From: Primorskyibacter flagellatus
Lineage (GTDB): Bacteria > Pseudomonadota > Alphaproteobacteria > Rhodobacterales > Rhodobacteraceae
Length of the DNA stretch: 64,000 nucleotides
Direction of reading: 5' to 3'
Assembly: GCF_014638275.1 (NCBI RefSeq)
Contig: NZ_BMFJ01000003.1
Location: forward strand, 1 to 64,000
The notes beneath the pieces were generated by a model, which saw only the letters and a program-made list of their open reading frames with translations, was not told where the DNA came from and did not search any database. This document shows, one piece after another, positions 3,640-20,153 of this stretch (position 1 is the first letter of the stretch; each line of letters begins with the position of its first letter). The translations under genes were made by a program, and so were the position numbers.

Positions 3640-4557
3640 TCAGCCGAGGAGCTTCTCCAGCTCTTCCCCTTGGGTGGCATGCTTCTTGGGGTTTTCTGCT
3701 TTCAGCTTGTTCACGTTGATGAGCTTCCATCTGACCGCTGGAAGCTCGGCCGCCTGAGGGCGGTCGATCGCGTCGAAGTCGGGGGCGCCGTCATGCAGGG
3801 TTCTCAGGAACCTCTTCGCGCCCTCATCCAAGCGGGATTGGATATCACCGATCAGGCGGTCGCGCGTCGCGATCAATTCCCCGAGGTCGACCGCTTCCTT
3901 CGTCATGCCCTCGAATTCCCGGGCATAGGGCTGATCCAGATCGATCAGGTTTGGGTTCAGAAGTTCGTGCGGCGGGCGGGGTGAACTCGCGACGTAGATC
4001 AGAAAAGTACGGAACAACGCGTCGGTAAACCCTTCGTTCTCGTAGAGCAGTTTAACGTCGTAGAGGTCTCGCGGGTGCTGGCGATCAAGGGCCGCATGGA
4101 GCTTGCCGCCGAACAAATCCTCGAAGGATACGATGTTCATCGTCGCATATCCGAACGCCTCCTCGACGGCTTCGGAGACTTCGCGTTGTTCCGGATCATG
4201 CACGACGCCCCGGGTAACGGGGGAGGTTTCGATTTTGATTTCGGCTGTGCCGAGGCGGGCGAGCGCACGCGTAGCCCCACCGCCACCGCCGGCAATGCGC
4301 TGAGCTTTGGCGCCGGTGATGCCGCCTTCGATGGCGGCGGCGATCCGGTCCATCGCGTTGTTGATCTCGACGAGGCTTTCGCCGCGGTCCTTGACAGGCA
4401 GATAGGTCAAATCGATATCGACCGAGAGGCGCGGAAGGTCGCGATAGAAGAGGTTGATGGCCGTCCCGCCCTTGAGCGCAAATATCTCCTCCTTCGCGAC
4501 ATACGGAAGTACCCGCACGAGCAGGGCCACTTGGGCGGCATAGTCCTCACGCGCCAT
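3640..4557 (-). CDS. abiEii: AbiEii/AbiGii-family nucleotidyltransferase toxin
   Basis: A 305-residue nucleotidyltransferase-like toxin of the type IV AbiE system. The MNT-fold signature is clear: GG at residues 30-31 and SVDIDL at 45-50, giving the two metal-binding aspartates. In the family AbiEii modifies tRNA acceptor ends or otherwise blocks translation during phage infection, and AbiEi opposes this by repressing the operon. The ATG at 4557 overlaps the abiEi stop by 11 bases, which indicates translational coupling; a longer reading frame exists but would overlap abiEi heavily. The helical C-terminal part (RLIGDIQSRLDEGAKRFL) matches the family. Confidence 0.88.
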   Translation of the reverse strand: MAREDYAAQVALLVRVLPYVAKEEIFALKGGTAINLFYRDLPRLSVDIDLTYLPVKDRGESLVEINNAMDRIAAAIEGGITGAKAQRIAGGGGGATRALARLGTAEIKIETSPVTRGVVHDPEQREVSEAVEEAFGYATMNIVSFEDLFGGKLHAALDRQHPRDLYDVKLLYENEGFTDALFRTFLIYVASSPRPPHELLNPNLIDLDQPYAREFEGMTKEAVDLGELIATRDRLIGDIQSRLDEGAKRFLRTLHDGAPDFDAIDRPQAAELPAVRWKLINVNKLKAENPKKHATQGEELEKLLG

Positions 4558-5386
4558 GACCAAGTTCCTTTCCCACAAACTCTTCGGGCACCATGATCCT
4601 GTAGCGTGGATGTATCTTGCCGCCTTTGACCAATGCGCGATCCCCGCTGCCGAGGTCGAAGTCTTCTGGATCGAGACGCTTGCGCCAGGCATGGTCGTGG
4701 CGGTCGGCGAACACGAAGAACAGGCGTTTGACCTTGATCTTCTTGCAACTTCTGAGCAGTGCCGAGAGGGTTCTTGGGCGCAACGTCGTCAGGCTTTCGA
4801 ACACCATGTCGAGGTTGTGAAAGCTCTCCTGATCCGGCAACTCGTCCAGCGCCTCAAAGATCGCGCGTTCCGGCGAGGACATCACCAGTTTCCAGTCCCA
4901 TGGCAGGGACGATGCTGTCTCGTTGAGATTTTTTCGTGCGTCATTGACACCCAACTCTGGATCGAAGAACAGCGATACGCTGCGTGTGCGGAGTTCGGCG
5001 TTGAGCGGCAGTTTTTCGAGCCAGTTGGGGATTTTTGAGCCGTAGAGCCAGACTGTGCTCTTGTCGCCGAGTGAGAGATAGTGCGCATAGCCTTGCAGGT
5101 CCAATGCCGTCGCCCCCCCGACATGGACAGGGTAGTGCATGATGTGCTGGAGCGAGAGCAGGCAGGTCTTCCAATCGAGCGTATTCGTGGTGGCGCTGCC
5201 TGGTGCCGGGCGGCGGAAGACGCCGCGTCCAAGGCGTTCTAGCCAGCCACGCTGGACATAGGCGTAGGACGAACGCCGGCCTATCCCGTGGTGCTCAAGC
5301 CAGACCGAGTCCACGAGGAACCCCGTGGGAACAGCCTCAAGAAGGCCCTTTAGTTTTTCGTGTTCTTGTCCGCTCATAGGCGACAC
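4547..5386 (-). CDS. abiEi: AbiEi-family antitoxin / transcriptional repressor
   Basis: A 279-residue AbiEi antitoxin. It carries an N-terminal winged-helix domain (VDSVWLEHHGIGRRSSYAYVQRG, split around residues 24-46, then LERLGRGVF) and a large C-terminal domain containing GGATALDLQGYAHYL and a conserved region after SPERAIFEALDELP. In the family the N-terminal domain binds inverted repeats upstream and represses the operon, and the C-terminal domain is needed for neutralisation. It is first gene of the abiEi-abiEii-hypothetical operon. A second ATG nine bases in (5377) is an equally possible start. Confidence 0.88.
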   Translation of the reverse strand: MSPMSGQEHEKLKGLLEAVPTGFLVDSVWLEHHGIGRRSSYAYVQRGWLERLGRGVFRRPAPGSATTNTLDWKTCLLSLQHIMHYPVHVGGATALDLQGYAHYLSLGDKSTVWLYGSKIPNWLEKLPLNAELRTRSVSLFFDPELGVNDARKNLNETASSLPWDWKLVMSSPERAIFEALDELPDQESFHNLDMVFESLTTLRPRTLSALLRSCKKIKVKRLFFVFADRHDHAWRKRLDPEDFDLGSGDRALVKGGKIHPRYRIMVPEEFVGKELGHGA

Positions 5387-5638: not shown

Positions 5639-6706
5639 TTAAGTCCCGCCCGACGTGCTAAGCGGTCCGTGGTAAAATGCAGCCGAAGCCCGAGGAGCAT
5701 CAAAGAATGTCTCAAGCCGTTCGGCGTTTTCTTCGACAAGACGTTTCGCCTGCTGCGGAAGTTCGGCACTCGCTCGCGTGAAGTCATCAAGTGCAATGGG
5801 TTCGAGCGTCGGAGCGGATGTCAGACGAAGCATGCGGTCTCGCCCGATCAAAAGTCCGGCCTGTCCAAGGGCGTTCTGGCTTTGCAGGTGCATCGCGCTC
5901 TCGATGATTGTTCTTCAGTGGAACATGCCGCCGCGCTTGATCTGACCGTCAGTCATACGAAGGTCTTGATCGCCACAGCCTAGGCTCAGGATGTCGATTT
6001 TGTGTCTGTCTACGTTGAAACAGCTCATGGCATCGACCAGCACCACCATGACGGGGTTGTTCGCCCAAACACCGCCATCGGCAAAGTGCCGGGTGCCATT
6101 TCGGTAGGTCGAGAAGAATGTCGGCGCGGCTGACGTCGCCAATGCTACCGTGACCAGTTCTTCCTGCCAGTCGAGGCGGAAGTCAGGGTGGTGCGGGGTC
6201 TTGAGGACGTTGACCTCGTTGAACCCATCGAAGGCGGGAATGTTCAAACGCACATTGACGGAGCCCAATGTCCTGTTGCCAAAGCGATCTCGAAGCGCTC
6301 GTTCCAAGGGTTCGCGGTTGTATCGATAGACGGCAAGATCGCGGGCGAACTGGTAAGCGGATCGCATCGCGCGACCAATTCGAGTTGGAGGAGTCCAAGG
6401 CCTGGGAAATATTTCCGACCCGTGGCGCATATAGATTTCCAAAACCTCCTCTGCGCGCATTCCTGCTGCCATGCCGAGCGCGATTATTCCTCCGGTTGAA
6501 GTGCCGGCGATCATGTCGAAGTAGCTGGCTGCCGAACCGCCCTTCAAGAAGCGACGCTCACATTCCGCCAGCACCGCCGCAGGCAGAATGCCTTTTATGC
6601 CGCCGCCATCAATGGAAAGTACGCGAAAATCATCTGCGGGCCATTCGAGTTGATCTCGACGGTGAAAGATGGTGCCCTGCGAGCGGCGGGATTGAGGTTG
6701 TGCCAT
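5639..6706 (-). pseudogene. capV: Patatin-like phospholipase CBASS effector (CapV-like) with an in-frame TGA
   Basis: The gene reads as a patatin-like phospholipase: GGGIKG oxyanion motif at residues 34-39, nucleophile serine in GTSTGG (S70), catalytic aspartate in DGGVWANNP (D210). In CapV-type effectors cyclic nucleotide binding activates membrane phospholipid hydrolysis. Codon 264 is TGA (5915-5917); the same frame then continues for 91 residues with strongly family-like sequence (IIESAMHLQSQNALGQAG). The codon sits where homologues, as I recall them, have tryptophan, so a single TGG to TGA change explains it. Without readthrough the product lacks its C-terminal quarter. The start at 6706 is set by GGAGA 9 bases upstream. 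It is third gene of the CBASS operon and overlaps the E2 frame. Confidence 0.82.
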
Positions 6707-7199
6707 GAAATCTCTCCATAAGTGCCGCCAACCTGGATCGCCCGCCTGACTGACTTCTGATGTGTTTGCCGGTCCCAAACCATTTTCCCGAAGCGAGCCA
6801 GCTTTCGTAGCAGCTCAGCCAGTTGGACGCCCAGGGAATGGTCGTATTGCTGATCAGGTCATCTGGCGACCACTGATCCGCTTCGTCGTCGAAGAGGCAG
6901 AGGAATGGCCCCGTACGCTCTGTTCGCGGATGTGATACATAAACATGCGGTAGGGACCCTTCTTCGTTACCGAAACGCCTTTGCATGGTCGGTTCAAGAA
7001 CCTCAACAAGAGGCTGCAGGTACAGGTTCGATCTACCTTCGAGCAGTAGGGGTTCCGTATACTCTACCCGCAGCCGGTACGTCGTTCTGTGTGGCTGCAG
7101 GCGCCCCTCCCAGACACAAGTCCGTCTGCTCAGCCGGTCGCATGACCATTCCGAATAGACATCGGCCATGTCCGCAATCTGATCACCAACAGTTATCAT
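6630..7199 (-). CDS. E2-like conjugating protein of short type II CBASS
   Basis: A 189-residue protein matching the stand-alone E2 (ubiquitin-conjugating-enzyme fold) of short type II CBASS, which lacks the E1 and JAB parts of long systems. The signature is LPHVY (83-87), then LCLF with the candidate catalytic cysteine C101, then W110 and the helix IPWASNWLSCYESWLASG (121-138). In these systems E2 forms a thioester or conjugate with the C-terminus of the CD-NTase and primes signalling. It starts inside the last codons of the CD-NTase (17-base overlap). Homologues usually end soon after the GTGKH stretch (142-146); here about 43 more low-complexity residues run 77 bases into the effector gene, which may reflect a lost stop or frameshift. 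Confidence 0.75.
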   Translation of the reverse strand: MITVGDQIADMADVYSEWSCDRLSRRTCVWEGRLQPHRTTYRLRVEYTEPLLLEGRSNLYLQPLVEVLEPTMQRRFGNEEGSLPHVYVSHPRTERTGPFLCLFDDEADQWSPDDLISNTTIPWASNWLSCYESWLASGKWFGTGKHIRSQSGGRSRLAALMERFHGTTSIPPLAGHHLSPSRSTRMARR

Positions 7200-8550
7200 C
7201 AGGTACAGTGCCCCCCATGTTCGTATTCGCGCGCGCAGGCCTCACGAGGCCTGGTGCCGACGCGATCCCAGCACCCAAAGCTGGTGCAGCCAGAGACGAA
7301 ACAGGTGCCGCAGGTTTCAGATGCCCGCTCGGTGTCATGCCGAGCGCACCATGTTCGAGCTGGACAGTCTGTGCACGATGATAGGCCTGCAGAGCGGTCT
7401 CACCGGCCTTTTCACCGAACAGATCGTCGAACGTCGATTGGATAACCGCAGGATCGAAGCCAACCCGCTTCAGGTTTTCGAGGCGTTCGATGAGGGTGAG
7501 CAAGTCCGCCGCCCAAAGTTGCTGGTCGCTCCTTTGAGCCGGCCACCGATCGGTGAAGAGGTCGGGGTAATGTGCCGGATTGCGAACTTCCAGCAACCGC
7601 AGGTTCTGTTCAGCATTGCGGATCTGCCAGCGCATCCGCTTGGCAATCGCTATCACCTCATCGACCAGGCTATCGTTTGCAGGGCTGGCATCGATTGCAA
7701 TCGCTGCGATAATGACGGCCGGTGGTTTGCGTTTGCCACGGTGATCGTCGTGCTTGCGATAGCGTTTGTCGCGGAACCTCTTGATCAGTTGCAGGGCAAC
7801 CACGCGAGGCGATTTCTGGTCGAGCGGGACATGCACCGGCATCGGTTGGGTATCTGCCTTTTGCAACGCCAGACCAGACGTCTCATTTGAAAGCCGCGTG
7901 GCCAGTTCGGTGTAGGTTTCGCCATCGACGAGGTAACGACGCGCATCGAAGCGCTTCTGAAACGCCTCGCTGATCTCGACGCGAGCATTGAAGTGATCGG
8001 CAAACCCCTTAGGATTGATCTCCTTGTGGTACCGCTCGTCCGTCTCAGGCTTGTGGTGAAACAAGGTTGCCACGCGTTCTGGTGCCCCATCGATGCGAAC
8101 GACCGGCATCAGATCGACCGTGACGCCGTCCGGGTAGGTAACCGTGACACAGCGACTGTTTTTCTCAATCAGGTAGTCGTAGTACTTGCTGCCTTTTTCG
8201 CCCTTGATCGCTTTGTACAGTTGTTCAAGCACCCATGCCGGATCGGTGCCAGGAGCGATCGCGATCTCGAGCACGGCATCAACGTCGTGCTGGTCGGTCT
8301 TCAGGCGTGACCGAGTCGCGGCGTGGATTGCAAAGCTGCCAGAAGGGTAGATCTCAAGGACCAAATCTTCGAGAGGGCTGCCAGGGCGGTCGACATGCTG
8401 AGCGAGCCCGCGAAAATGGCGGTCGGCTTCGTCGTGCATCGTGCGGGTGATCTGGATGGCACGTGCAACGTCCATCAGCGCAGCTTCTACAGGGTCGATC
8501 TCCAGGCTGCGGGCGAAATCTTCGAGGTTCGTCCTGATATTCATCTTCAT
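7183..8550 (-). CDS. CD-NTase (cGAS/DncV-like nucleotidyltransferase) of CBASS
   Basis: A 455-residue cyclic-oligonucleotide synthase. The catalytic core is visible: GS at 71-72 (SGSFAIH), the metal-binding D89-x-D91 in HDVDAVL, and the third acidic residue D146 in GVTVDLMPV. It is first gene of the operon that continues with the E2 protein and the patatin effector. Family role: on phage infection it makes a cyclic di- or trinucleotide that activates the effector. The clade and product cannot be told from sequence alone. The last 40 residues are Ala/Pro/Gly-rich and flexible, suited to conjugation; a GG dipeptide lies eight residues before the end rather than at it. An alternative ATG exists two codons downstream. 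Confidence 0.88.
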   Translation of the reverse strand: MKMNIRTNLEDFARSLEIDPVEAALMDVARAIQITRTMHDEADRHFRGLAQHVDRPGSPLEDLVLEIYPSGSFAIHAATRSRLKTDQHDVDAVLEIAIAPGTDPAWVLEQLYKAIKGEKGSKYYDYLIEKNSRCVTVTYPDGVTVDLMPVVRIDGAPERVATLFHHKPETDERYHKEINPKGFADHFNARVEISEAFQKRFDARRYLVDGETYTELATRLSNETSGLALQKADTQPMPVHVPLDQKSPRVVALQLIKRFRDKRYRKHDDHRGKRKPPAVIIAAIAIDASPANDSLVDEVIAIAKRMRWQIRNAEQNLRLLEVRNPAHYPDLFTDRWPAQRSDQQLWAADLLTLIERLENLKRVGFDPAVIQSTFDDLFGEKAGETALQAYHRAQTVQLEHGALGMTPSGHLKPAAPVSSLAAPALGAGIASAPGLVRPARANTNMGGTVPDDNCW

Positions 8551-8597
8551 CTGCCCCCTCAGGCTTGACGGATTCGCTGATCCGTCTTACAGTTTTT

Positions 8598-8666
8598 GAC
8601 GTTTTCGTAGGATAGAAAGCGAAAAAAGAAGCCGCGAGCAAGCGGCAGTAATCCTACGATATCGTC
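8598..8666. promoter_or_regulatory. Paired inverted 16-bp operators between CBASS and capH
   Basis: The divergent promoter region (8551-8689) contains GACGTTTTCGTAGGAT at 8598-8613 and, on the other strand, GACGATATCGTAGGAT at 8651-8666. The two copies match at 13 of 16 positions and face each other across 37 bases. Each has an internal ACG-N4-CGT dyad; in the right copy it is the perfect palindrome ACGATATCGT. One copy lies near each gene start, the layout expected if the adjacent XRE-family protein represses both its own operon and CBASS. No experimental evidence is available here. Confidence 0.65.
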
Positions 8667-8689
8667 ATACTAACACATGCGGGAGCGTC

Positions 8690-9025
8690 ATGTCAAATTC
8701 TACGGATTCCAATGGTGGGTTCGGTGACAGGTTACGTCAAGCCAGAGAAGCGCGAGGGATCAACCAAACGGAACTTGCGGCGAAGACTGGGTTACAACCA
8801 TCAGCAATCGGCCATTTCGAGAAGGAGCGGCGCAAGCCTTCGTTTGCAAACATTAGGGCCCTCGCGAAGGCATTGAGCGTTACGTCAGACTACTTGCTAG
8901 GCAGGACCAACGACATGGCGGGAGCAACAACGGCATTTCGTGGTGAAGAGAACCTGTCAGACGACGACCGAGAGCACATTCAAATGATGATCGACCTCAT
9001 GAACCAGAGAAAGTCGGGTCGTTGA
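8690..9025 (+). CDS. capH: CapH-like XRE-family repressor
   Basis: A 111-residue helix-turn-helix repressor. The XRE domain spans about residues 12-67 (LRQAREARGINQTELAAKTG, IGHFEKERRKPS, YLLGRTND). It is followed by a short C-terminal tail (DREHIQMMIDLM) that may dimerise. It is divergent from the CBASS operon and coupled to a Zn-peptidase gene: the two frames overlap at TTGA. This is the CapH-CapP arrangement described for some CBASS loci, where CapH represses CBASS and CapP cleaves CapH upon DNA damage. The assignment rests on domain type and context. Confidence 0.78.
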   Translation: MSNSTDSNGGFGDRLRQAREARGINQTELAAKTGLQPSAIGHFEKERRKPSFANIRALAKALSVTSDYLLGRTNDMAGATTAFRGEENLSDDDREHIQMMIDLMNQRKSGR

Positions 9026-9909
9026 GCAAATTCCGAATTCATATGGCGCGGCGCCAAGGTGAACTCAAAGCAAAAGAAAATGGCTACGATGCCTTCCCCG
9101 TTGATCCGTTTGCGATCGCGGAGAGCGAAGACATCTTGGTCGAGCCAAAGGATCCGGGCCGGGTTGGCGTGAGCGGCGGGATCATCTTCCATGATGAGAG
9201 CGTTGGCATCTTCTATGCGACCGATATCAAGAGCGAGGGGTTTCGCCGGTTCACCGTGGCTCACGAACTTGGCCACTATTTTCTTGAGGGGCATCCCGAG
9301 GAAATTCTGAAGACTGCTCCGATCCACATGTCCAGGGCGGGGTTTTCACAAGGGACGAGTTCGATAGAGCTAGAGGCGGATCATTTTGCGTCTGGGCTGC
9401 TCATGCCGTCGAGACTCGTGGGCGAGGTCATCGGGGGCAGCCGTGTCGGTCTGGATGGGATCATTGCGCTAAGTCAGCTGGCCGAGTGCTCGCTCACGGC
9501 CTCTGCCATCAGAGCCGCCGAATGTTGCGACTATCCGATGGCGGTTGTCGTCAGTTCCGGCGACAAGGTCGCATATGCGTTCTTGTCTGACAGCTTCAAA
9601 AAGCTCGACAAGCTCACATTCCTCAAAAAGGGTACTCCGCTGCCACGAACCCATACCCTGCGGTTCAACGCTGATACGCAAAGCATCCGGTCCGCGCGCT
9701 CGATATGTGGACAAACCAGTCTTGCTGAATGGTTCTCTTGTGGGCGACGGCTTGCGTTGGATGAAGAAGTCATCGGTCTCGGCGCTTACGGCTTCACCCT
9801 TACCGTCCTTTCCAGCGAAGAACTTGCTGACGATCCCGATGACGAAGCCTACGAAGAAGAAGCCTTATTGATTGAGAGCTGGACCCCCAAGTTCGCGATA
9901 GGTCGCTAA
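9022..9909 (+). CDS. capP: CapP-like ImmA/IrrE-family zinc peptidase
   Basis: A 295-residue protein whose N-terminal half is an ImmA/IrrE metallopeptidase: HELGH at 81-85 supplies two zinc ligands and the catalytic glutamate, and E118 in ELEADHFASGLLMP is the likely third ligand. The C-terminal half (CGQTSLAEWFSCGRR) is a regulatory domain seen in CapP/IrrE proteins. The start is TTG overlapping the capH stop; an internal ATG at 9043 is possible. Predicted role: cleave the CapH-like repressor when a DNA signal binds and so derepress CBASS. The 186 bases that follow hold nothing recognisable. Confidence 0.8.
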   Translation: MSKFRIHMARRQGELKAKENGYDAFPVDPFAIAESEDILVEPKDPGRVGVSGGIIFHDESVGIFYATDIKSEGFRRFTVAHELGHYFLEGHPEEILKTAPIHMSRAGFSQGTSSIELEADHFASGLLMPSRLVGEVIGGSRVGLDGIIALSQLAECSLTASAIRAAECCDYPMAVVVSSGDKVAYAFLSDSFKKLDKLTFLKKGTPLPRTHTLRFNADTQSIRSARSICGQTSLAEWFSCGRRLALDEEVIGLGAYGFTLTVLSSEELADDPDDEAYEEEALLIESWTPKFAIGR

Positions 9910-10095: not shown

Positions 10096-10428
10096 TCAGC
10101 TCTGATCGTTTAGCCTGGCATCGGGCGCATTGGCTTTTACCGAGGCAATGCCATTTTCGCGTGCGGCTTCGCTGCTATAGGCCTCGCTGGTTCCAATGAC
10201 TTGGCCGTTGCTGGCCTTGAGGTTGAACATAGGCTTTCCGGCCGCATTGGTCTTCCGCTCGTAGCGTGTGTCCAACGGTGCGTTGGTGCGCACCGAGGCT
10301 ATACCATTCTCGGCGCTGGCCTTCTGCTTATAGCCCTCGCCTGTCAAGATAATCTCACCATTTCCGGCCTTCAGACGAAACCGGTACTCCCCGGCCCTGT
10401 CCTCGTAGAGTTCGAATTTACCCGCCAT
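10096..10428 (-). CDS. YegP-family protein, two DUF1508 repeats
   Basis: A 110-residue protein built from two tandem DUF1508 units of about 45 residues. Each has a beta pattern (FELYEDRAGEYRFRLKA, then FNLKASNGQVIGTSE) and ends in a near-identical GIASV(R/K)xNAP. The family is small, widespread and without an assigned biochemical role. The start at 10428 is supported by GGAGGA about 8 bases upstream; a longer frame to 10560 is unlikely because it lacks such a site. It is monocistronic and separates the defence region from the Hxs operon. Confidence 0.85.
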   Translation of the reverse strand: MAGKFELYEDRAGEYRFRLKAGNGEIILTGEGYKQKASAENGIASVRTNAPLDTRYERKTNAAGKPMFNLKASNGQVIGTSEAYSSEAARENGIASVKANAPDARLNDQS

Positions 10429-10766
10429 TCTGTCACTTCCTCCGAAAGTCTGATTTCCGCGCGCAGTTGACAGGTGCGAGAAAGGCTTGGCAAGACCCGG
10501 TTTCCCTGACGCGGATCGAAATCGTTCCAACGCAATTGCGACGTTGTCCGGGGGTAACATTGCGTGAGCCAGCCGATGGTTCTGCTTTGGGGGGGCCGAT
10601 CCTCAGGGTCGGAAGACGGGTGGTGTCTTTGCGCCACCCGTTGCGGGAAGTTCACTTGACGTGCATTTCTTGGGCGTCGTGGGCATGAATTTTGCCACAT
10701 TCCACGCCCAATGAATGTTATAGCACACCGGATGTCAATTTTTGAGCAGACCCCGAGACCGCAGAT
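10429..10766. other. Gene-free region upstream of the Hxs operon
   Basis: No convincing gene in 338 bases. It holds the start region of the divergent YegP gene and a 7-base stem-loop (CGGGTGG at 10617-10623 with CCACCCG at 10634-10640) without a T-run. The AT-richer stretch at 10690-10760 is the likely promoter zone for hxsD. The Shine-Dalgarno before hxsD is weak (GAGA). Confidence 0.4.
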
Positions 10767-11024
10767 ATGTCCCTGAGCCCCGTTCTCGATATTTCCATAG
10801 ACCCGGAACTTCATCCCTGCATTCCCGCTGCACTTTTGCGCCTTGGATACCTCTATCCCGAGCTCGACTTTCTCGTGTCGGACAAGGGCGTCGCGGTGCA
10901 CGGCGCGTCGGGGTCCGATCTCGCGCGGCTCAAACGCGAGGTGACCTACCAAGTCTATCGCGAGAAGGTCTTCCGGCAGACCTTGTCCATGCGGCAGAGC
11001 CTCTACGCGATGTTGGCAGGCTGA
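10767..11024 (+). CDS. hxsD: His-Xaa-Ser system protein HxsD
   Basis: An 85-residue protein matching HxsD, the small partner of the Hxs system. It shows the family's C-terminal pattern around LKREVTYQVYREKVFRQT, where homologues end near an (L)NDYxLRE-like motif. Its role is unknown; by analogy with other radical SAM systems it may act as a recognition or chaperone subunit. Its stop overlaps the hxsB start (TGATG), so the two are translationally coupled. Confidence 0.8.
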   Translation: MSLSPVLDISIDPELHPCIPAALLRLGYLYPELDFLVSDKGVAVHGASGSDLARLKREVTYQVYREKVFRQTLSMRQSLYAMLAG

Positions 11025-12433
11025 TGCAGATCTGGCCGCTCCGTTTTCGCGATCTCGACGATCAAAGAACCATCCTCGCCGATGACTCCGGCGCTTATTT
11101 CCTGGCCGAGAGCGGGTTCGTCGATCGCTACGCGCGCGACGCGATAACGCCTCCGGAGGAACGGTTCCTGCGGGAAAAGGGCCACGCCTTCGAGTGGGCG
11201 GGCGATCTCGCCCATACCGGGTTTCTCACGAGGTGGTCGCGGCGCCAGCATGTGGGCGGCGGGTCGGCCTATGTGATCCTGATCCCGACGCTGCGTTGCA
11301 ATCTGAAATGCTCCTATTGCCAGGTCTCGCGCGCGCCGCTCGCGGCGCAGGGCTTCGACTGGGATTCGGAGACGCTTCAAAAGGTGCTGGGCTTTCTCGA
11401 CGGCCTGCCGGTCGAGGAGATCCAGATCGAGTTCCAGGGCGGGGAGCCGTTCCTCAGGCTCGACCTCCTGCAGGCCGTCGCCGCCTTCGCGCGCCGGCGC
11501 TTTCAGCGCGTCCGTTTCGTGGTCTGCAGCAACCTTCAAACTCTCGATGAGGACATCCTCGCGTTTCTCGACAGCGAGGACGTGCTGATCAGCACCTCGC
11601 TCGACGGACCGCACCAGATCCATACCCGTAACCGGACCGCAGATAGCGCGCTAACGAAGAACTTCCTCAGCAACCTCGAGCGGGTGATCGGCCTGATCGG
11701 TCCCGCACGGGTCTCCGCCCTGCCGACCATCGACATGGACGACCCGCCCGATCCGGAAGATCTGATCGCGGCCTACGAGGCGTTCGGCTTCACCTCGCTC
11801 TACCTGCGCCCCGTCAACTACCAGGGTTTCGCCCGCAAGAGCCATCCCGCGGCCCGGACCTCGACCGCCTGGAACGCCTACTATCGAGGTTTCATCGACA
11901 CGCTGATCGCGCGAAACGCGCTGACGGGCCGGGTGATGGAGGAGTTCTATCTTGCCCATTGCCTGCGACGCATCCTCGCTCCCGGGCTGGACGGTCACAC
12001 CGATCTGCGCAATCCCAACATCCCGACCGGCGCGAATGCGGTCATCGATTTCGACGGACAGATCTATCCCAGCGACGAGGCGCGCATGTTGGCGCGCATC
12101 CGGCGGGTCAATCTCGCCATCGGCAATGTGAGCGATGGCCTGGACCAGGAAAAGCTGGCCCTGCTCGCGCCGGGACACATCAACAACTTCGATCCCGACT
12201 GTATCCACTGCCCCTATCAGCCCTTCTGCGGCACCGATCCGATCGATGATCTCTCGCGCAGCGGTCGGATTGATGTGCCCCGCCAAGACAGCTGGTTCTG
12301 CCAGCGCCACCTCGCTGTCTTCGACCTCGCAATGGAGCTGATTTACAGCAAAGACCCAGCGGTCGAATTTACCCTGTCGCGCTGGTTCGGGCTCGAGACT
12401 CTTCCCGACGCCTTGAGGCCGATCGCGCCATGA
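11024..12433 (+). CDS. hxsB: His-Xaa-Ser system radical SAM maturase HxsB
   Basis: A 469-residue radical SAM enzyme. The [4Fe-4S]/SAM cluster motif C92-x3-C96-x2-C99 (RCNLKCSYC) is intact, followed by the glycine-rich FQGGEPFLR. A C-terminal cysteine group (CIHCPYQPFC) suggests a SPASM-like auxiliary cluster, typical of peptide-modifying maturases. I chose the ATG at 11024 because it is coupled to hxsD; the frame is open further upstream but that part overlaps hxsD. The presumed substrate is HxsA, encoded two genes downstream, probably at its His-x-Ser repeats. The modification chemistry is unknown. Confidence 0.9.
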   Translation: MQIWPLRFRDLDDQRTILADDSGAYFLAESGFVDRYARDAITPPEERFLREKGHAFEWAGDLAHTGFLTRWSRRQHVGGGSAYVILIPTLRCNLKCSYCQVSRAPLAAQGFDWDSETLQKVLGFLDGLPVEEIQIEFQGGEPFLRLDLLQAVAAFARRRFQRVRFVVCSNLQTLDEDILAFLDSEDVLISTSLDGPHQIHTRNRTADSALTKNFLSNLERVIGLIGPARVSALPTIDMDDPPDPEDLIAAYEAFGFTSLYLRPVNYQGFARKSHPAARTSTAWNAYYRGFIDTLIARNALTGRVMEEFYLAHCLRRILAPGLDGHTDLRNPNIPTGANAVIDFDGQIYPSDEARMLARIRRVNLAIGNVSDGLDQEKLALLAPGHINNFDPDCIHCPYQPFCGTDPIDDLSRSGRIDVPRQDSWFCQRHLAVFDLAMELIYSKDPAVEFTLSRWFGLETLPDALRPIAP

Positions 12434-13509
12434 TCCCGCTGCGTCTCAAATCGGAGTGCGACCGCACCCTCGCGCCTTTCGTGACCCGGATCGCCGAAGA
12501 GGAGCCGCGTTGCGCGGAGGATGCCACGCTTTGGTCGGAGGAGGCGGGCACCTTGGGCTACCAGACCGGACAGATCAAGTTCAGGCTTTCGGATGTCGCG
12601 CCCGCAGAGGTCGCGGGCGATGTGCTGCTCGTCGACCCGCGGCGCCAGATCGCCCATCGACTCATCCGGGCGGCCTCGCCGCACAACACGTTCCTGATTA
12701 CCGAGCAATGCGACCAGCTTTGTCTTATGTGTTCCCAGCCGCCGAAGCCGCAGCACCAGGACATGTTTGACCATTTCCTCGCGGCCTCCCGGCTGGCGCC
12801 GACGGGCGCGCAGATCGGGCTTTCCGGCGGAGAGCCGCTCTTGCACAAGGACGCCCTCTTCGCCTTTATCGACGCAGTTTTCGCGACCCGCGATGATCTC
12901 TGCTTCCACATCCTGACCAACGGGCAGTATTTCGAGCGCGCGGATTTGGCATGGTTGCGCAAGCACCGGGCACGGCTGCTTTGGGGCGTGCCAATCTATT
13001 CCGACAACCCCGCAACCCATGACGAGATCGTCGGCAAGCCTGGCGCCTTCGCACAGCTGTCTCCGAACCTCGCGCTCCTGGGCCTAGCCGGCGCCGCGCT
13101 CGAGCTCAGAACAGTTGTCCTGCGGCAGAACGCTCCTGGGTTGCCAAGTCTCGCCGACTTCATCGCGCGACATCTACCCTTCGCCGCAACCTGGGCGATC
13201 ATGCAGATGGAACGCATCGGCTATGGCCGGATGAACTGGGGCCGGTGCTTCTTCGACAGCAGCATCGACTTCGCCAGTCTCGGCGCGGCCATCGACCTGA
13301 TGCGCGCGCGCCGCCAAGACGTGACGCTCTACAATTTCCCGCTCTGCACGGTGCCTCCGGCCTATCGGGATCTCGCGGCACGATCGATTTCAGACTGGAA
13401 GCAGAAGTACCTCCCGGCCTGCGCAACGTGCAGCCTGCGCGACGACTGCGCCGGGTTCTTCGAGTGGTACCGGGAGGAGGACGGATTCATGGAGATACGG
13501 CCGCAATGA
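12430..13509 (+). CDS. hxsC: His-Xaa-Ser system radical SAM maturase HxsC
   Basis: A 359-residue second radical SAM protein. C94-x3-C98-x2-C101 (EQCDQLCLMC) forms the SAM cluster, SGGEPLL follows, and C331, C334 and C340 near the C-terminus could ligate an auxiliary cluster. ATGA overlap with hxsB. HxsB and HxsC always occur as a pair in this system, suggesting either sequential modification of the same peptide or a heteromeric complex. No residue is obviously missing. Confidence 0.9.
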   Translation: MIPLRLKSECDRTLAPFVTRIAEEEPRCAEDATLWSEEAGTLGYQTGQIKFRLSDVAPAEVAGDVLLVDPRRQIAHRLIRAASPHNTFLITEQCDQLCLMCSQPPKPQHQDMFDHFLAASRLAPTGAQIGLSGGEPLLHKDALFAFIDAVFATRDDLCFHILTNGQYFERADLAWLRKHRARLLWGVPIYSDNPATHDEIVGKPGAFAQLSPNLALLGLAGAALELRTVVLRQNAPGLPSLADFIARHLPFAATWAIMQMERIGYGRMNWGRCFFDSSIDFASLGAAIDLMRARRQDVTLYNFPLCTVPPAYRDLAARSISDWKQKYLPACATCSLRDDCAGFFEWYREEDGFMEIRPQ

Positions 13510-14045
13510 AGAAGATCGGAAAATTCGCCATCACGCTCGCGGCCGCGGGCTACCTGCCACAGGGGGCTCAGGCCGTGGTCGCACCACCGCGGCTCGATTA
13601 TGACGATGATGCGTCGGCCTCGCTGTTCCAGATCCTACGGGGCGAGCACAAGTACACGCTGGCCGGGCACCGATCACACTCGAGCCATGGCTCGCACGGA
13701 TCGCATGGCAGCCATCGCTCCTCCTCGAGCGGGGGATATTCGAGTGGGGGCAGTTCCTATCGCCCGTCGAAACCCTCAAGCAACAGCACGCCGCCATCCT
13801 ATGTCATGCCGCGCGCGTCGCAGGCGCCGAAAACATTGCCCGGCAACAGTACGGCCTTCACCGAGATTGTCAGGCGGGTTCAGACGGCACTCTATGCCTA
13901 TGGCTATTACACCGGTGCCATCGACGGGATCGTCGGCACCGGCACCAAAACTGCGCTCAGCAAGTTCCAGAAGGACTGGAACCTGAAGATCACTGGCACC
14001 ATCACCCCCGAGGTCCTCGATGCGCTCAATATCGTTGCGAAGTAG
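13506..14045 (+). CDS. hxsA: HxsA: secreted His-Xaa-Ser repeat protein with peptidoglycan-binding domain
   Basis: A 179-residue exported protein and the presumed substrate of HxsB/HxsC. It has a signal-peptide-like start (MKKIGKFAITLAAAGYL, then AQA). A block of six H-x-S triplets follows (HRS, HSS, HGS three times, HRS) at about residues 57-75, then a Ser/Gly/Pro-rich linker. Last comes a peptidoglycan-binding type 1 domain from about 118 (VQTALYAYGYYTGAIDG, GTKTALSKFQ). The product should sit in the periplasm against the cell wall. ATGA overlap with hxsC. The repeat block is short, so only a few sites could be modified. Confidence 0.88.
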   Translation: MKKIGKFAITLAAAGYLPQGAQAVVAPPRLDYDDDASASLFQILRGEHKYTLAGHRSHSSHGSHGSHGSHRSSSSGGYSSGGSSYRPSKPSSNSTPPSYVMPRASQAPKTLPGNSTAFTEIVRRVQTALYAYGYYTGAIDGIVGTGTKTALSKFQKDWNLKITGTITPEVLDALNIVAK

Positions 14046-14418
14046 CTGGCTCCGATATGCCCTGGTCCTGGCCGGTGGCGTGGTGATCGGCCAGATCGTT
14101 CCGCCGCTCTGGACCTGGGGGGTGATCCTCGTCGCCGAGCCGTCGTACCAAGAGGCGACCTATCGCTGTGATCGCTCGATGCGCGCGCATCTCCTGGCCA
14201 AACAGAAGCTGGAGGCTGCGCCTTCGGCTGAAAGTGTCCGGGACCTCGAGGCGAGCGAGATCGCGCTGATCGACTGCCAGGATTACGACCTGATGCGCAA
14301 GCGGCTGATGCTCGTCGGGCTTGACGAGACAGCCCTGTCCTACATGGCACTGAAGGCCATCGAGGCCAAGGCGACAGACCTGCAGGATGTGATCGAGATC
14401 CATGAAATCCATTACTAG
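14020..14418 (+). CDS. TIGR03982-type His-Xaa-Ser system membrane-anchored protein
   Basis: A 132-residue protein with one N-terminal membrane segment (YALVLAGGVVIGQIVPPLW, about 13-31) and a periplasmic helical domain with two cysteines (YRCDRS, IDCQDY). It matches the small accessory family found only in Hxs operons. The ATG overlaps the end of hxsA by 26 bases; a TTG at 14035 would shorten it by five residues. Its role is unknown; it could tether the periplasmic dihaem proteins or HxsA to the membrane. Confidence 0.75.
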   Translation: MRSISLRSSWLRYALVLAGGVVIGQIVPPLWTWGVILVAEPSYQEATYRCDRSMRAHLLAKQKLEAAPSAESVRDLEASEIALIDCQDYDLMRKRLMLVGLDETALSYMALKAIEAKATDLQDVIEIHEIHY

Positions 14419-15628
14419 GGTCTTCTTCGCGATCGCGCTGATCTGCGCCGCCCCCGCCATGGCCGAAACCATGCGCGAGGCCGTCCTGCGCAAGGCCGCG
14501 CTGGAGAATGGATTGCGTCCGGCCGAAGAGTCCTGGCCCGATTTCGAACCGGAAAAGGCGGCGGTCGGCAAACTCCTCTTCGAGAGCGAACTTCTCTCGC
14601 TTACCCGGAACGTCTCCTGTCGTAATTGCCACCTCGACGAGTTCGGCTCCGCGGATGGTCTGCCGCTTGGACATGGGGCAGGTGGTGTCGGCAAAGGCGT
14701 CGAGCGGATGAAGAGCCAGGCAGGGGTGCTCTCACGCAACGCCCTCGCCCTCTGGGGCCGCGGCGGGATCGGCTTCGACGTCTTCTTTTGGGACGGACGG
14801 GTAGATGCCAGTTCGGGTGCGGTCCGAAGCCAGTTCGGCACCATGGCGCCCTCCGACGACCCTCTGGTCGTGACCGCGCATCTGCCGCCGGTGGAGTTCC
14901 GCGAGATGATCGGGGAGAGCAATGACACGGAATGGCTCCGCCAGGGCGATGTCAACGCCGCGGCCCGGGTGCACCAGGAGATCGCCCGCCGCATTCGGGG
15001 GACGCCCGAGATCGCCGAGCCCCTGTCTGAAGCGTCCGGGCTTGACTTCGAGCAGCTCACCTACTTGCAGATCGCCGAGGCCATTGCCGCCTTCATCCGC
15101 TCCGAGTTCCGGCTTCGGGAGACCAAGCTCCATCGCTTTGTCTTCGAGCGTCAGGCGCTGACAGACCAGGAACTGGCCGGCGGCCTCCTTTTCTACGGCC
15201 GCGGGCAGTGCGCGGCCTGTCACAGTGGCCCCTATTTCTCGGACCTCAGGTTCCACGCGATTCCGTTCGCGCAGTTCGGGTTCGGGTTCAACGGCTTCGG
15301 CATCGACTACGGCCGCTACAATTTCACGCAAGACCCCCGAGATCGCTACGCCTTCCGCACGCCGCCGCTTTATAATGTCACCAAGACCGCGCCCTATTCC
15401 CATTCCGGGGTCGAGCCGGATCTCGCCGGCGCCATCCGGGCGCATGTCGATCCTTTGGCAGAGATCGATACCAGCAGACTTTCCGCGCTAGATCGGGCCG
15501 AGGTCTACCAGAAAATCGCGCGCTGGTCACTGGAGCCGAGCTACGCGGTCGAGCTCAGCGACGCGGAGATCGCCGAGCTCGTCGCCTTCCTGGCGGCGCT
15601 GGAGTTCGATCCGGAGCCCGGGCGGTGA
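14402..15628 (+). CDS. His-Xaa-Ser system MauG-like dihaem enzyme
   Basis: A 408-residue periplasmic dihaem protein. It begins with a clear signal peptide (VFFAIALICAAPAMA) and has two haem-binding CxxCH motifs, CRNCH at 73-77 and CAACH at 270-274, in the usual arrangement of the cytochrome c peroxidase/MauG family. MauG oxidises tryptophans of methylamine dehydrogenase to form a quinone cofactor; by analogy this enzyme may oxidise residues of HxsA after export. Overlaps the previous gene by 17 bases and the next by 4, so it is fully embedded in the operon. Confidence 0.87.
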   Translation: MKSITRVFFAIALICAAPAMAETMREAVLRKAALENGLRPAEESWPDFEPEKAAVGKLLFESELLSLTRNVSCRNCHLDEFGSADGLPLGHGAGGVGKGVERMKSQAGVLSRNALALWGRGGIGFDVFFWDGRVDASSGAVRSQFGTMAPSDDPLVVTAHLPPVEFREMIGESNDTEWLRQGDVNAAARVHQEIARRIRGTPEIAEPLSEASGLDFEQLTYLQIAEAIAAFIRSEFRLRETKLHRFVFERQALTDQELAGGLLFYGRGQCAACHSGPYFSDLRFHAIPFAQFGFGFNGFGIDYGRYNFTQDPRDRYAFRTPPLYNVTKTAPYSHSGVEPDLAGAIRAHVDPLAEIDTSRLSALDRAEVYQKIARWSLEPSYAVELSDAEIAELVAFLAALEFDPEPGR

Positions 15629-17199
15629 AGCGGGTGCGCCCGCGCGATGTGCTCGACCTCTTCACCCGGATCGCCATCATCGGGATCGGTCTATCCCTGC
15701 CGGTCTGGCTCTACCTGGCAGAGCTACGTCCGCGTTTCGTGCTTCACCGGACGGAGAAGGACCTCCGCGCGCTGGCCGCCGCCTGCGACCAAGCGCTGCG
15801 CAGCGCGGAGGCGACAGAGGAGACCCGTGCCCAACTGGACCCTGCGCAGGCGGCGCGCCTCGACCTGTCTCTCGAGATCGGCCGGTTGCCCTGCAAAAGC
15901 TACAGTGTGCTCACCGAACAGTTGCTTTCGGAGGGCGTATCGCGGCATGCGCTCGCGGCCCTCAACCTCTCTGCAACCTCCGATCCCGCTTATCCGGACT
16001 TGAGGGCGGTGCTCGCGGATGCGGACCAGCTTGATGCCCAGCTGCGCGTCACGTCCCGGCTCTTCGATCTCGCGCCGCTGCCTCTGAAGGAATATCTGCG
16101 CAATGCGAAGTTCCGGCTCGGCGAACGGTTATTTTTCGATCCACTCCTGAGCGGGCAGGGGGATCGCACCTGCGCCACCTGCCATGTCTTGGTCTCCGCG
16201 ACCGCGGACGGGGCGGCCTTGGAGACACATCTTGACGTATCGCCAGAATGGTTGCCCGGCGTTCCTGCGCGCAACGTGCCCGATCTCTGGAACCGCGACC
16301 ACAACGACGTCTCAACCATGCTCTGGGATGGTCGGGTTCAGGCGCTCGCCGCCGCGAATGAGGGCGGGCTCGTATCGCCCGAGCCCCTGCCGACGACGGG
16401 ATTCGAGAACCTCATGGCGTTGCAATCGATTCGGCCGATCATTATCCCGGCGGAGATGCTTGGCGAGCCCGGCGCCGGGAATGTTCTTGCTCCCAAGTCA
16501 CTCGGCGCGCCGCTCCCCGAAGCTGTGCTGACACGCCTCGCGACGCGACTCTACGAGGACGATGAGCGCGGTAAGGATACGGAGACATATCAGAGGTTGT
16601 TTCGCAAGAGCTACGGGGTCGGGGCTGCCGAAGAGGTGCGTCCGGCTCATCTCGGCAATGCGCTCGCGCATTACATCGAGATCGCCTTTCAGTCCCGGGA
16701 AACGCCTTGGGATCGCTACCTCGTCGGCGATCTTTCCGCCCTCACGGCGGATCAGAAACGCGGGGCGGTCCTATTCTATGGCGTCGGTAAATGCGCCGTG
16801 TGTCATGTGGGCGATGTCTTCAGTGACTTCGGGTTCCATTCCATCGGGGTGCCCGACATGCGGGAGGAGAAGGATTTAGGCCGCTTCTATGCCACCGGTT
16901 TGGCAGAGGACCGGTTTCTGTTCCGGACGCCGCCCTTGCGGAACGTCACGCTCACGGCGCCCTATTTCCATAACGGTCAGGGCAAAACTCTCAGCGAGGC
17001 GATCCAGCAACATCTCAATCCATATCAGTTTGCACGGGCCTACGCCGAAGGCGGAGAGCATCTGATGGGGTCGACAGAGATTGATGCGATTTCGCCGATC
17101 CTCGCGCCAAGATCTATGATCACCGATGCTCAAATCGAGCTTTTGATAGCGTTTCTGAAATCCTTGGAGGATCGCCGTGCCGACGCATTGTCGCCCTGA
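15625..17199 (+). CDS. Membrane-anchored dihaem cytochrome c peroxidase-like protein
   Basis: A 524-residue protein of the same superfamily as its upstream neighbour but longer. It has an N-terminal membrane anchor (IAIIGIGLSLPVWLYLAEL, about 17-35) and an extra helical segment up to about residue 150. The peroxidase part has CATCH at 183-187 and CAVCH at 390-394. GTG start, overlapping the MauG-like stop (GTGA). A second dihaem enzyme in one Hxs operon suggests a two-step oxidation, or an electron donor/acceptor pair. It could also be a true H2O2 peroxidase; the sequence does not decide this. Confidence 0.85.
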   Translation: MKRVRPRDVLDLFTRIAIIGIGLSLPVWLYLAELRPRFVLHRTEKDLRALAAACDQALRSAEATEETRAQLDPAQAARLDLSLEIGRLPCKSYSVLTEQLLSEGVSRHALAALNLSATSDPAYPDLRAVLADADQLDAQLRVTSRLFDLAPLPLKEYLRNAKFRLGERLFFDPLLSGQGDRTCATCHVLVSATADGAALETHLDVSPEWLPGVPARNVPDLWNRDHNDVSTMLWDGRVQALAAANEGGLVSPEPLPTTGFENLMALQSIRPIIIPAEMLGEPGAGNVLAPKSLGAPLPEAVLTRLATRLYEDDERGKDTETYQRLFRKSYGVGAAEEVRPAHLGNALAHYIEIAFQSRETPWDRYLVGDLSALTADQKRGAVLFYGVGKCAVCHVGDVFSDFGFHSIGVPDMREEKDLGRFYATGLAEDRFLFRTPPLRNVTLTAPYFHNGQGKTLSEAIQQHLNPYQFARAYAEGGEHLMGSTEIDAISPILAPRSMITDAQIELLIAFLKSLEDRRADALSP

Positions 17200-17322: not shown

Positions 17323-17327
17323 GCGGG

Positions 17328-20153
<2,826 letters not shown>

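Follow-up and report, generated by a model that had tools for sequence, protein, structure and literature searches.

The seven-gene His-Xaa-Ser operon of Primorskyibacter flagellatus: a fused second dihaem protein and a dihaem-linked motif in HxsA

What do the dihaem proteins of a His-Xaa-Ser (Hxs) operon act upon, and what does a second such protein represent? The question is raised by a stretch of 64,000 nucleotides from Primorskyibacter flagellatus (contig NZ_BMFJ01000003.1, positions 1 to 64,000; hereafter the window), part of a 4.6 Mb genome in 10 contigs, in which an Hxs operon occupies positions 10767–17199 of the forward strand, with all seven genes in the order hxsD-hxsB-hxsC-hxsA-TIGR03982-TIGR03981-second dihaem gene (Table 1). 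An initial annotation had described this operon as complete, as is confirmed here, and had supposed that radical S-adenosylmethionine (SAM) enzymes modify the His-Xaa-Ser (HxS) repeats of HxsA and that dihaem enzymes then act on the modified repeats. This latter step is not favoured by the comparison of related loci presented below, because the dihaem genes track another motif (near STPPxSVLP), which in four loci resides on a separate protein. The best explanation, to which we would give an even chance, is that a cell-wall protein is modified by a pathway spread over two compartments and made up of two separable modules, one pairing the radical SAM enzymes with the HxS repeats and the other the dihaem proteins with the STPP motif.

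The HxsA motif and the proposed separation of two modules

HxsA of the window begins with a signal-like segment (recognised by inspection), followed by the HxS repeat tract HRSHSSHGSHGSHGSHRS, the motif NSTPPSYVMP and a PG_binding_1 domain (PF01471, 1.7e-14). Gene identities were assigned with NCBIfam models and their curated cut-offs (in bits), and with Pfam at 0.01. HxsA with its HxS repeats passes the TIGR03979 cut-off, HxsB and HxsC exceed theirs, and the locus belongs to the Hxs system on both counts; the TIGR03982 gene product and the first of the dihaem proteins, identified as such in the initial annotation, also score above their curated cut-offs. The HxS repeats are probably the target of the radical SAM pair.

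Relatives were collected by a contig scan using an alignment of four first-dihaem sequences, which yielded 40 loci, supplemented by eight loci from genome searches (L037–L039, L096–L100), a dihaem-bearing plasmid of Thioclava (L049) and another 13 plasmid loci (L046–L048, L101–L110). The resulting sample comprises 62 loci including the window, 43 with and 19 without a dihaem gene of this type; one of the 40 scan loci, that of Pseudooceanicola atlanticus 22II-s11g (L050), whose first dihaem protein is identical to that of the window, was excluded. In dihaem loci, HxsA carries between its HxS tract and peptidoglycan-binding domain a motif with a consensus near RNxxSTPPSSVLPSSPA, represented in the window by SSNSTPPSYVMPRA. 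A strict pattern, ST[PT][PREDN].{1,4}[LM]P, is found in 37 of 41 dihaem loci and in none of 17 dihaem-free loci (Fisher 3e-11). Two dihaem loci (L066, L073) have no HxsA-type protein to be scored, and two dihaem-free loci (L096, L101) were left out of the 17, their short HxS peptides being unmatched by the profile and devoid of the motif by eye. Such locus counts are not independent, and an HxsC tree of 59 loci was therefore built by a quick method, with 57 rows scored for both motif and dihaem. On this tree no fewer than 7 changes are required to account for dihaem presence. Of 7 independent pairs, 5.4 on average show motif and dihaem changing together and 0.0 show them changing in opposite directions (median sign-test p 0.031).

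The four loci in which HxS tract and motif lie on different proteins belong to two distinct branches in the HxsC tree, and derive from Polynucleobacter (L082, L083), the PS1 clade (L085) and an alphaproteobacterial metagenome-assembled genome (L077). In L082 the HxS protein is HxsA2 (77.4 bits, cut-off 48), encoded upstream of hxsB, and the motif protein, with a PG_binding_1 domain, is encoded between hxsC and the TIGR03982 gene. In L077 the HxS protein is encoded together with hxsB and hxsC in a run on the opposite strand; the gene for the motif protein (also PG_binding_1) lies ahead of the TIGR03982 and dihaem genes. The same kind of HxS tract is carried by dihaem-free loci. A close pair, L060 with dihaem and L106 without, encodes HxsA proteins 65% identical over 197 columns and identical in their HxS tracts, with the motif intact in L060 only and a degenerate-looking stretch at the same place in L106. 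On the simplest reading, the HxS tract would be the substrate of HxsB and HxsC, and the motif would serve the TIGR03982-dihaem unit, which probably recognises the STPPxSVLP-like motif and not the HxS repeats.

The TIGR03982-dihaem unit and its second copy

The TIGR03982 protein of the window has an N-terminal membrane helix (by inspection), two conserved cysteines and a conserved C-terminal tail, EIHEIHY. Both dihaem proteins contain two CxxCH motifs, the first also FFWDGR, and at the axial position treated below they have His348 and His463, respectively. The second scores below the TIGR03981 cut-off (254.3 vs 340 bits), and its residues 19–117 give a weak TIGR03982 match (24.9 bits, E-value 1.6e-5, under the cut-off of 40); this N-terminal domain aligns in its cysteines and other residues with separate TIGR03982 proteins. 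Introduced in the initial annotation as a second, membrane-anchored dihaem peroxidase, the protein retains the dihaem part of that description and is better described, judging from these alignments, as a fusion of a TIGR03982-type domain with a dihaem domain. Its geometry was not drawn from a predicted model, which was rejected for this purpose at a mean predicted local distance difference test score (pLDDT) of 70.1, with 48–79 per ten-residue block over the first 120 residues.

In 42 of the 43 dihaem loci a TIGR03982 gene stands immediately before a dihaem gene, the exception (L066) beginning at a contig end, and an HxsA-type gene is present in 41, the other two (L066, L073) starting at contig ends. 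A second dihaem copy occurs in 10 of the 43, a lower bound in view of intervening contig ends (e.g., L054, L063); eight copies are fused and two are adjoining separate genes. The fused copy lies directly downstream in the window, L051, L052, L053, L055, L086 and L087, and is divergently encoded upstream of hxsD in L037. The separate pairs of TIGR03982-like and dihaem genes are found on the same strand in L056 (Oricola) and on the opposite strand in L081 (a gammaproteobacterial metagenome-assembled genome), where the TIGR03982-like match reaches only 22 bits with our own profile. With 47% (L056) and 38% (L081) identity to the second protein of the window, compared with 24–34% for 21 first-copy proteins in the same alignment, both are taken to be of the second type. 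The idea of a one-off duplication was rejected on account of this recurrence in several arrangements, and the two-dihaem form is, as far as sequence comparison goes, a duplicated TIGR03982-dihaem unit whose second pair is fused in eight of the ten loci found. One pair occurring both fused and separate is a classic sign of physical partnership, and the fused second dihaem protein suggests that TIGR03982 and dihaem proteins are physical partners. The earlier view of the two-dihaem version as a useful variant is supported.

The two TIGR03982 types differ at their C-termini. Among 42 separate TIGR03982 proteins scoring above 80 bits, a count that leaves out the two unfused second-type copies (L056, L081), HEI or HEF occurs within the last seven residues in 41 and a terminal Tyr or Phe in 38; the HEI/HEF tail is missing from the fused domain and from those two second-type copies. 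A loose two-cysteine pattern matches 51 of 52 TIGR03982 sequences, separate and fused taken together.

Axial ligand, proposed pathway and competing explanations

The sixth ligand of the C-terminal haem was read 14 residues after the His of a PYxH(D/N/S)G-type motif, an offset that aligned solved proteins place at Met in 1zzh, Tyr in 6e1c (an entry named 'Di-heme enzyme', which we take to be MbnH) and, at residue 294, again Tyr in MauG. The pattern used was the stricter of two, the laxer one having also picked up, in several first-dihaem proteins, an HGAGG stretch that is unrelated and gives Ser. His occupies this position in all 53 readable proteins or pieces of the sampled Hxs loci, the N-terminal dihaem pieces of L086 and L087 not being scorable. 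Among weaker family matches (L018–L033) the readable cases comprise 12 with Tyr and 4 with Met, His occurring in none; L026 and L027 could not be read. Non-Hxs proteins at about 230–290 bits on TIGR03981 have His in 9 of 9 readable distinct proteins (4 unreadable), so that His marks a wider clade and not Hxs alone. According to PMC6405878, replacing the Tyr by His abolishes the bis-Fe(IV) signal in both BthA and MauG, and the BthA variant retains peroxidase activity with an external donor. In combination with the axial His this makes MauG-type bis-Fe(IV) chemistry unlikely in the Hxs dihaem proteins, for which a peroxide-driven oxidation that bypasses MauG's bis-Fe(IV) state would be expected.

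MauG, which functions in tryptophan tryptophylquinone maturation, shares sequence kinship, the CxxCH pair, the WDG Trp and a conserved Glu, but its model TIGR03791 gives the two Hxs proteins only 62.4 and 121.3 bits, far under the cut-off of 443.85, and Hxs proteins have His where the MauG chain has Tyr294. MbnH and CorB-type enzymes are, like those of Hxs, encoded beside a presumed target, but the MbnH family model TIGR04039 scores 85.1 and 108.7 bits, below its cut-off of 362.85, and 6e1c has its axial Tyr. Bacterial cytochrome c peroxidases are the best PDB sequence matches of both dihaem proteins; in contrast to these, the Hxs proteins replace the axial Met by His (alignment to 1zzh), and their genes are linked to a target-protein operon. 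PMC3912023 describes a further parallel, the methanotroph CorA/MopE system, in which a dihaem protein is co-transcribed with a kynurenine-containing copper protein, and ties MauG and CorB-type enzymes to Trp oxidation.

The gene set, the fusion and its recurrence, the coupling of motif and dihaem and the axial-position His are read directly from sequence; from these features we infer substrate assignments, export, peroxide use and an order of steps. In the cytoplasm HxsB and HxsC, aided by the small HxsD, would modify the HxS repeat tract of HxsA, which would then be exported, probably by Sec, and held at the peptidoglycan by its C-terminal domain. In the periplasm the membrane-tethered TIGR03982 protein and its dihaem partner would form a unit recognising the linker motif STPPxSVLP, and would apply peroxide-derived oxidising power to HxsA or to something presented beside the motif. 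One or two such membrane-tethered units would act after wall attachment. A bolder proposal, offered tentatively, is that the TIGR03982-dihaem pair is an independent, His-ligated protein-modification machine which recognises a new short motif on a wall-bound carrier and is able to work on proteins lacking HxS repeats; Hxs would then be a composite of two modification systems sharing one target, the two-dihaem form providing a natural fused enzyme-partner protein.

Several observations weigh against this two-module pathway. The strict motif pattern was composed after the sequences had been seen, and four of the 41 dihaem loci lack it, three with near variants by eye (L058, L072, L080) and one with none (L089). 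A looser pattern, [ST].P.{2,5}[LM]P, matches 40 of the 41 but also one of the 17 dihaem-free loci (L048), and one requiring N two or three residues before the motif matches 30 of 41 and none of 17, missing the window and the six other downstream-fused loci, a group which accordingly has a variant motif. Independent contrasts number only 7, with sign-test p ranging from 0.031 to 0.125, and sampling was uneven, dihaem loci coming mostly from the dihaem pattern scan and dihaem-free loci mostly from plasmids. The motif contains neither Trp nor a conserved Tyr, whereas Trp oxidation is what MauG and CorB-type enzymes are associated with, and it may thus be a docking site only. Finally, in two of the eight fused loci the first dihaem gene, which may hence be dispensable, is broken by a Mutator-family transposase gene (L086 3962–5397, L087 10218–11479), inserted at different places to judge by how long the leftover pieces are. 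Both loci keep the second dihaem gene intact, and the two units may be partly redundant, or the L086 and L087 systems may be decaying.

Three other explanations have to be weighed against these data. Under the scheme of the initial annotation, the dihaem enzymes further oxidise the modified HxS repeats in the manner of MauG or MbnH and so generate a redox-active or metal-binding peptide. Membership of the MauG superfamily, the position of the first dihaem type beside hxsA in 41 of 43 loci, a His at every third residue, suggestive of metal binding, and the CorA/MopE precedent all speak for it; yet equivalent HxS tracts in dihaem-free loci, the tracking of a motif that four loci place on another protein, and the uniform replacement of the axial Tyr by His render it unlikely. 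It also seems improbable that the dihaem proteins are ordinary periplasmic peroxidases which shield the HxsA product or the cell and leave HxsA unmodified, with TIGR03982 as tether or electron donor. The paired CxxCH motifs, WDG Trp and conserved Glu, the kinship to cytochrome c peroxidases and the residual peroxidase activity of Tyr-to-His BthA would all suit such a role, which nonetheless leaves unexplained both the gain and loss of the HxsA motif with dihaem and the close linkage to Hxs.

We attach very little probability to the last alternative, that the STPPxSVLP motif is a structural spacer whose correlation with dihaem reflects shared ancestry or joint horizontal transfer. It could draw on the small number of independent contrasts and on the degenerate-looking stretch of L106 where its relative L060 has the motif. 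However, no tree contrast runs the opposite way, the motif is retained on separate proteins beside dihaem genes in the four split loci on two branches, and drift of the motif after dihaem loss would itself imply that it serves the dihaem unit. If the two-module pathway is right, the split between radical SAM-HxS and dihaem-STPP tells which mutant should alter which part of HxsA; the fused second protein hints at which proteins are physical partners; and the axial-position His, arguing against borrowing the MauG mechanism, yields a prediction for spectroscopy on the purified protein.

HxsD, surroundings and distribution

The profile searches proposed in the initial annotation recover hxsB, hxsC and hxsA and miss hxsD, an outcome which that annotation had counted against its own assignment: TIGR03976 finds no match in this genome at E-values up to 10, and NCBIfam and Pfam at 0.01 likewise give none for hxsD. 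The same model does detect HxsD in both relatives to which it was applied, with 61.2 and 93.6 bits against a cut-off of 50. Profile-profile comparison nevertheless upholds the call, as hhalign aligned a profile of 17 proteins from the hxsD position with a set of 11 HxsD-position proteins (two verified by TIGR03976, the others picked by position and by eye) over 80 columns with a probability of 91.3% and an E-value of 9.6e-7 for one comparison, while eight column-shuffled controls reached at most 0.7%. A miscall was rejected on the strength of this match and of related proteins at the same place before hxsB, and the window gene is, at the profile level, a divergent HxsD beyond the reach of TIGR03976. 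PqqD is a winged-helix protein with a three-strand order. An AlphaFold model of the window HxsD (pLDDT 91.5) has the order strand-helix-strand-strand-helix-helix, and Foldseek found no PDB match to it at an E-value of 0.001; a PqqD-like recognition element was rejected on both grounds. In six sphingomonad-type Hxs loci (L065, L068, L069, L072, L074, L078) HxsD was not found by profile or by eye in the frames just upstream of hxsB, and three rhizobial plasmids (L108, L109, L110) have a separate, divergent peptidoglycan-binding protein gene just upstream of the hxsD position.

The Hxs system owes its definition to comparative genomics, reportedly by Haft and Basu. That work is cited in PMC9062424, and Hxs genes are no more than mentioned in PMC9062424 and PMC8446631. 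In the literature searched, no product was found assigned to Hxs, in agreement with the initial annotation, and no description was found of the fused second unit, the HxsA motif or the axial-position His, most subscription papers lying outside that search. The window thus represents a known kind of system (TIGR03976–TIGR03982), as HxsA, HxsB, HxsC, TIGR03982 and one TIGR03981 protein pass their cut-offs, and differs from it in an HxsD matched at profile level only, in the second dihaem protein with its fused domain and in the dihaem-linked HxsA motif; to the known system the present data add the fused unit, this motif and the His at the axial position.

Successive genes of the operon overlap by 1, 4, 4, 26, 17 and 4 bases; the 4- to 26-base range given earlier holds for five junctions, and hxsD/hxsB overlap by a single base. 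The operon stops upstream of a thiamine pyrophosphate (TPP) riboswitch and thiC.

Table 1. Features of the Hxs operon and its surroundings (window coordinates; scores in bits)
Feature	Coordinates	Strand	Size	Remarks
AbiEii toxin-family nucleotidyl transferase	3640–4689
CBASS-like genes	5915–9909	−/+		patatin phospholipase (−), CD-NTase (PADLOC cyclase 531, −), capH and capP regulators (+)
DUF1508 / HVO_2922-family gene	10096–10560	−
hxsD	10767–11024	+	85 aa	divergent HxsD; TIGR03976 no match, hhalign match
hxsB, radical SAM maturase	11024–12433	+	469 aa	TIGR03978 402.9, cut-off 370
hxsC, radical SAM maturase	12430–13509	+	359 aa	TIGR03977 298.6, cut-off 267.9
hxsA	13506–14045	+	179 aa	TIGR03979 137.4, cut-off 121.65
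TIGR03982 protein	14020–14418	+	132 aa	105.5, cut-off 40
First dihaem protein	14402–15628	+	408 aa	MauG-like; TIGR03981 450.5, cut-off 340
Second dihaem protein	15625–17199	+	524 aa	dihaem domain with a fused, TIGR03982-type domain at the N-terminus; TIGR03981 254.3
TPP riboswitch of thiC	17326–17444	+		RF00059 67.2; downstream boundary, outside the system
thiC	17426			

Upstream, with one gene (of the DUF1508/HVO_2922 family) in between, lies an operon resembling the cyclic oligonucleotide-based anti-phage signalling system (CBASS), including a cGAS/DncV-like nucleotidyltransferase (CD-NTase), and further upstream an AbiEii-family gene that fits a defence island; AbiE-type genes are annotated near Hxs also in L049, L105 and L109. 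CBASS genes adjoin Hxs in two Mesorhizobium plasmids (L046, L047) and Aminobacter pAA02 (L104), and lie about 7 kb off in Jiella (L058). As a component of Hxs, CBASS was rejected, such genes being present in 5 of the 62 loci (these four and the window) and at differing positions; their proximity looks like the sharing of islands.

Hxs is an accessory gene set in these genomes. HxsC is found at an E-value of 1e-30 in 3 of 394 genomes of the family, and at 1e-20 in 7 of 385 genomes of the class (own genome counted in both), the other genome of the genus not being among the former. Hxs is common on plasmids: HxsB has matches in 415 of 72,556 plasmid records, and Klebsiella accounts for 316 of the 415. 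Weaker TIGR03981-like dihaem proteins occur also in genomes with no detected HxsC (e.g., G022, G154, G252), so that it is the first-dihaem type, and not the superfamily at large, that is linked to Hxs. Elsewhere in its genome the window's organism has a third TIGR03981-like dihaem gene (L040, G000:C1:1433111-1434292; 261.7 bits, below the cut-off), and an hxsC annotated in a Leptospira phage record (KF114877.1, 78994–80082) encodes a protein with 32% identity to HxsC of the window.

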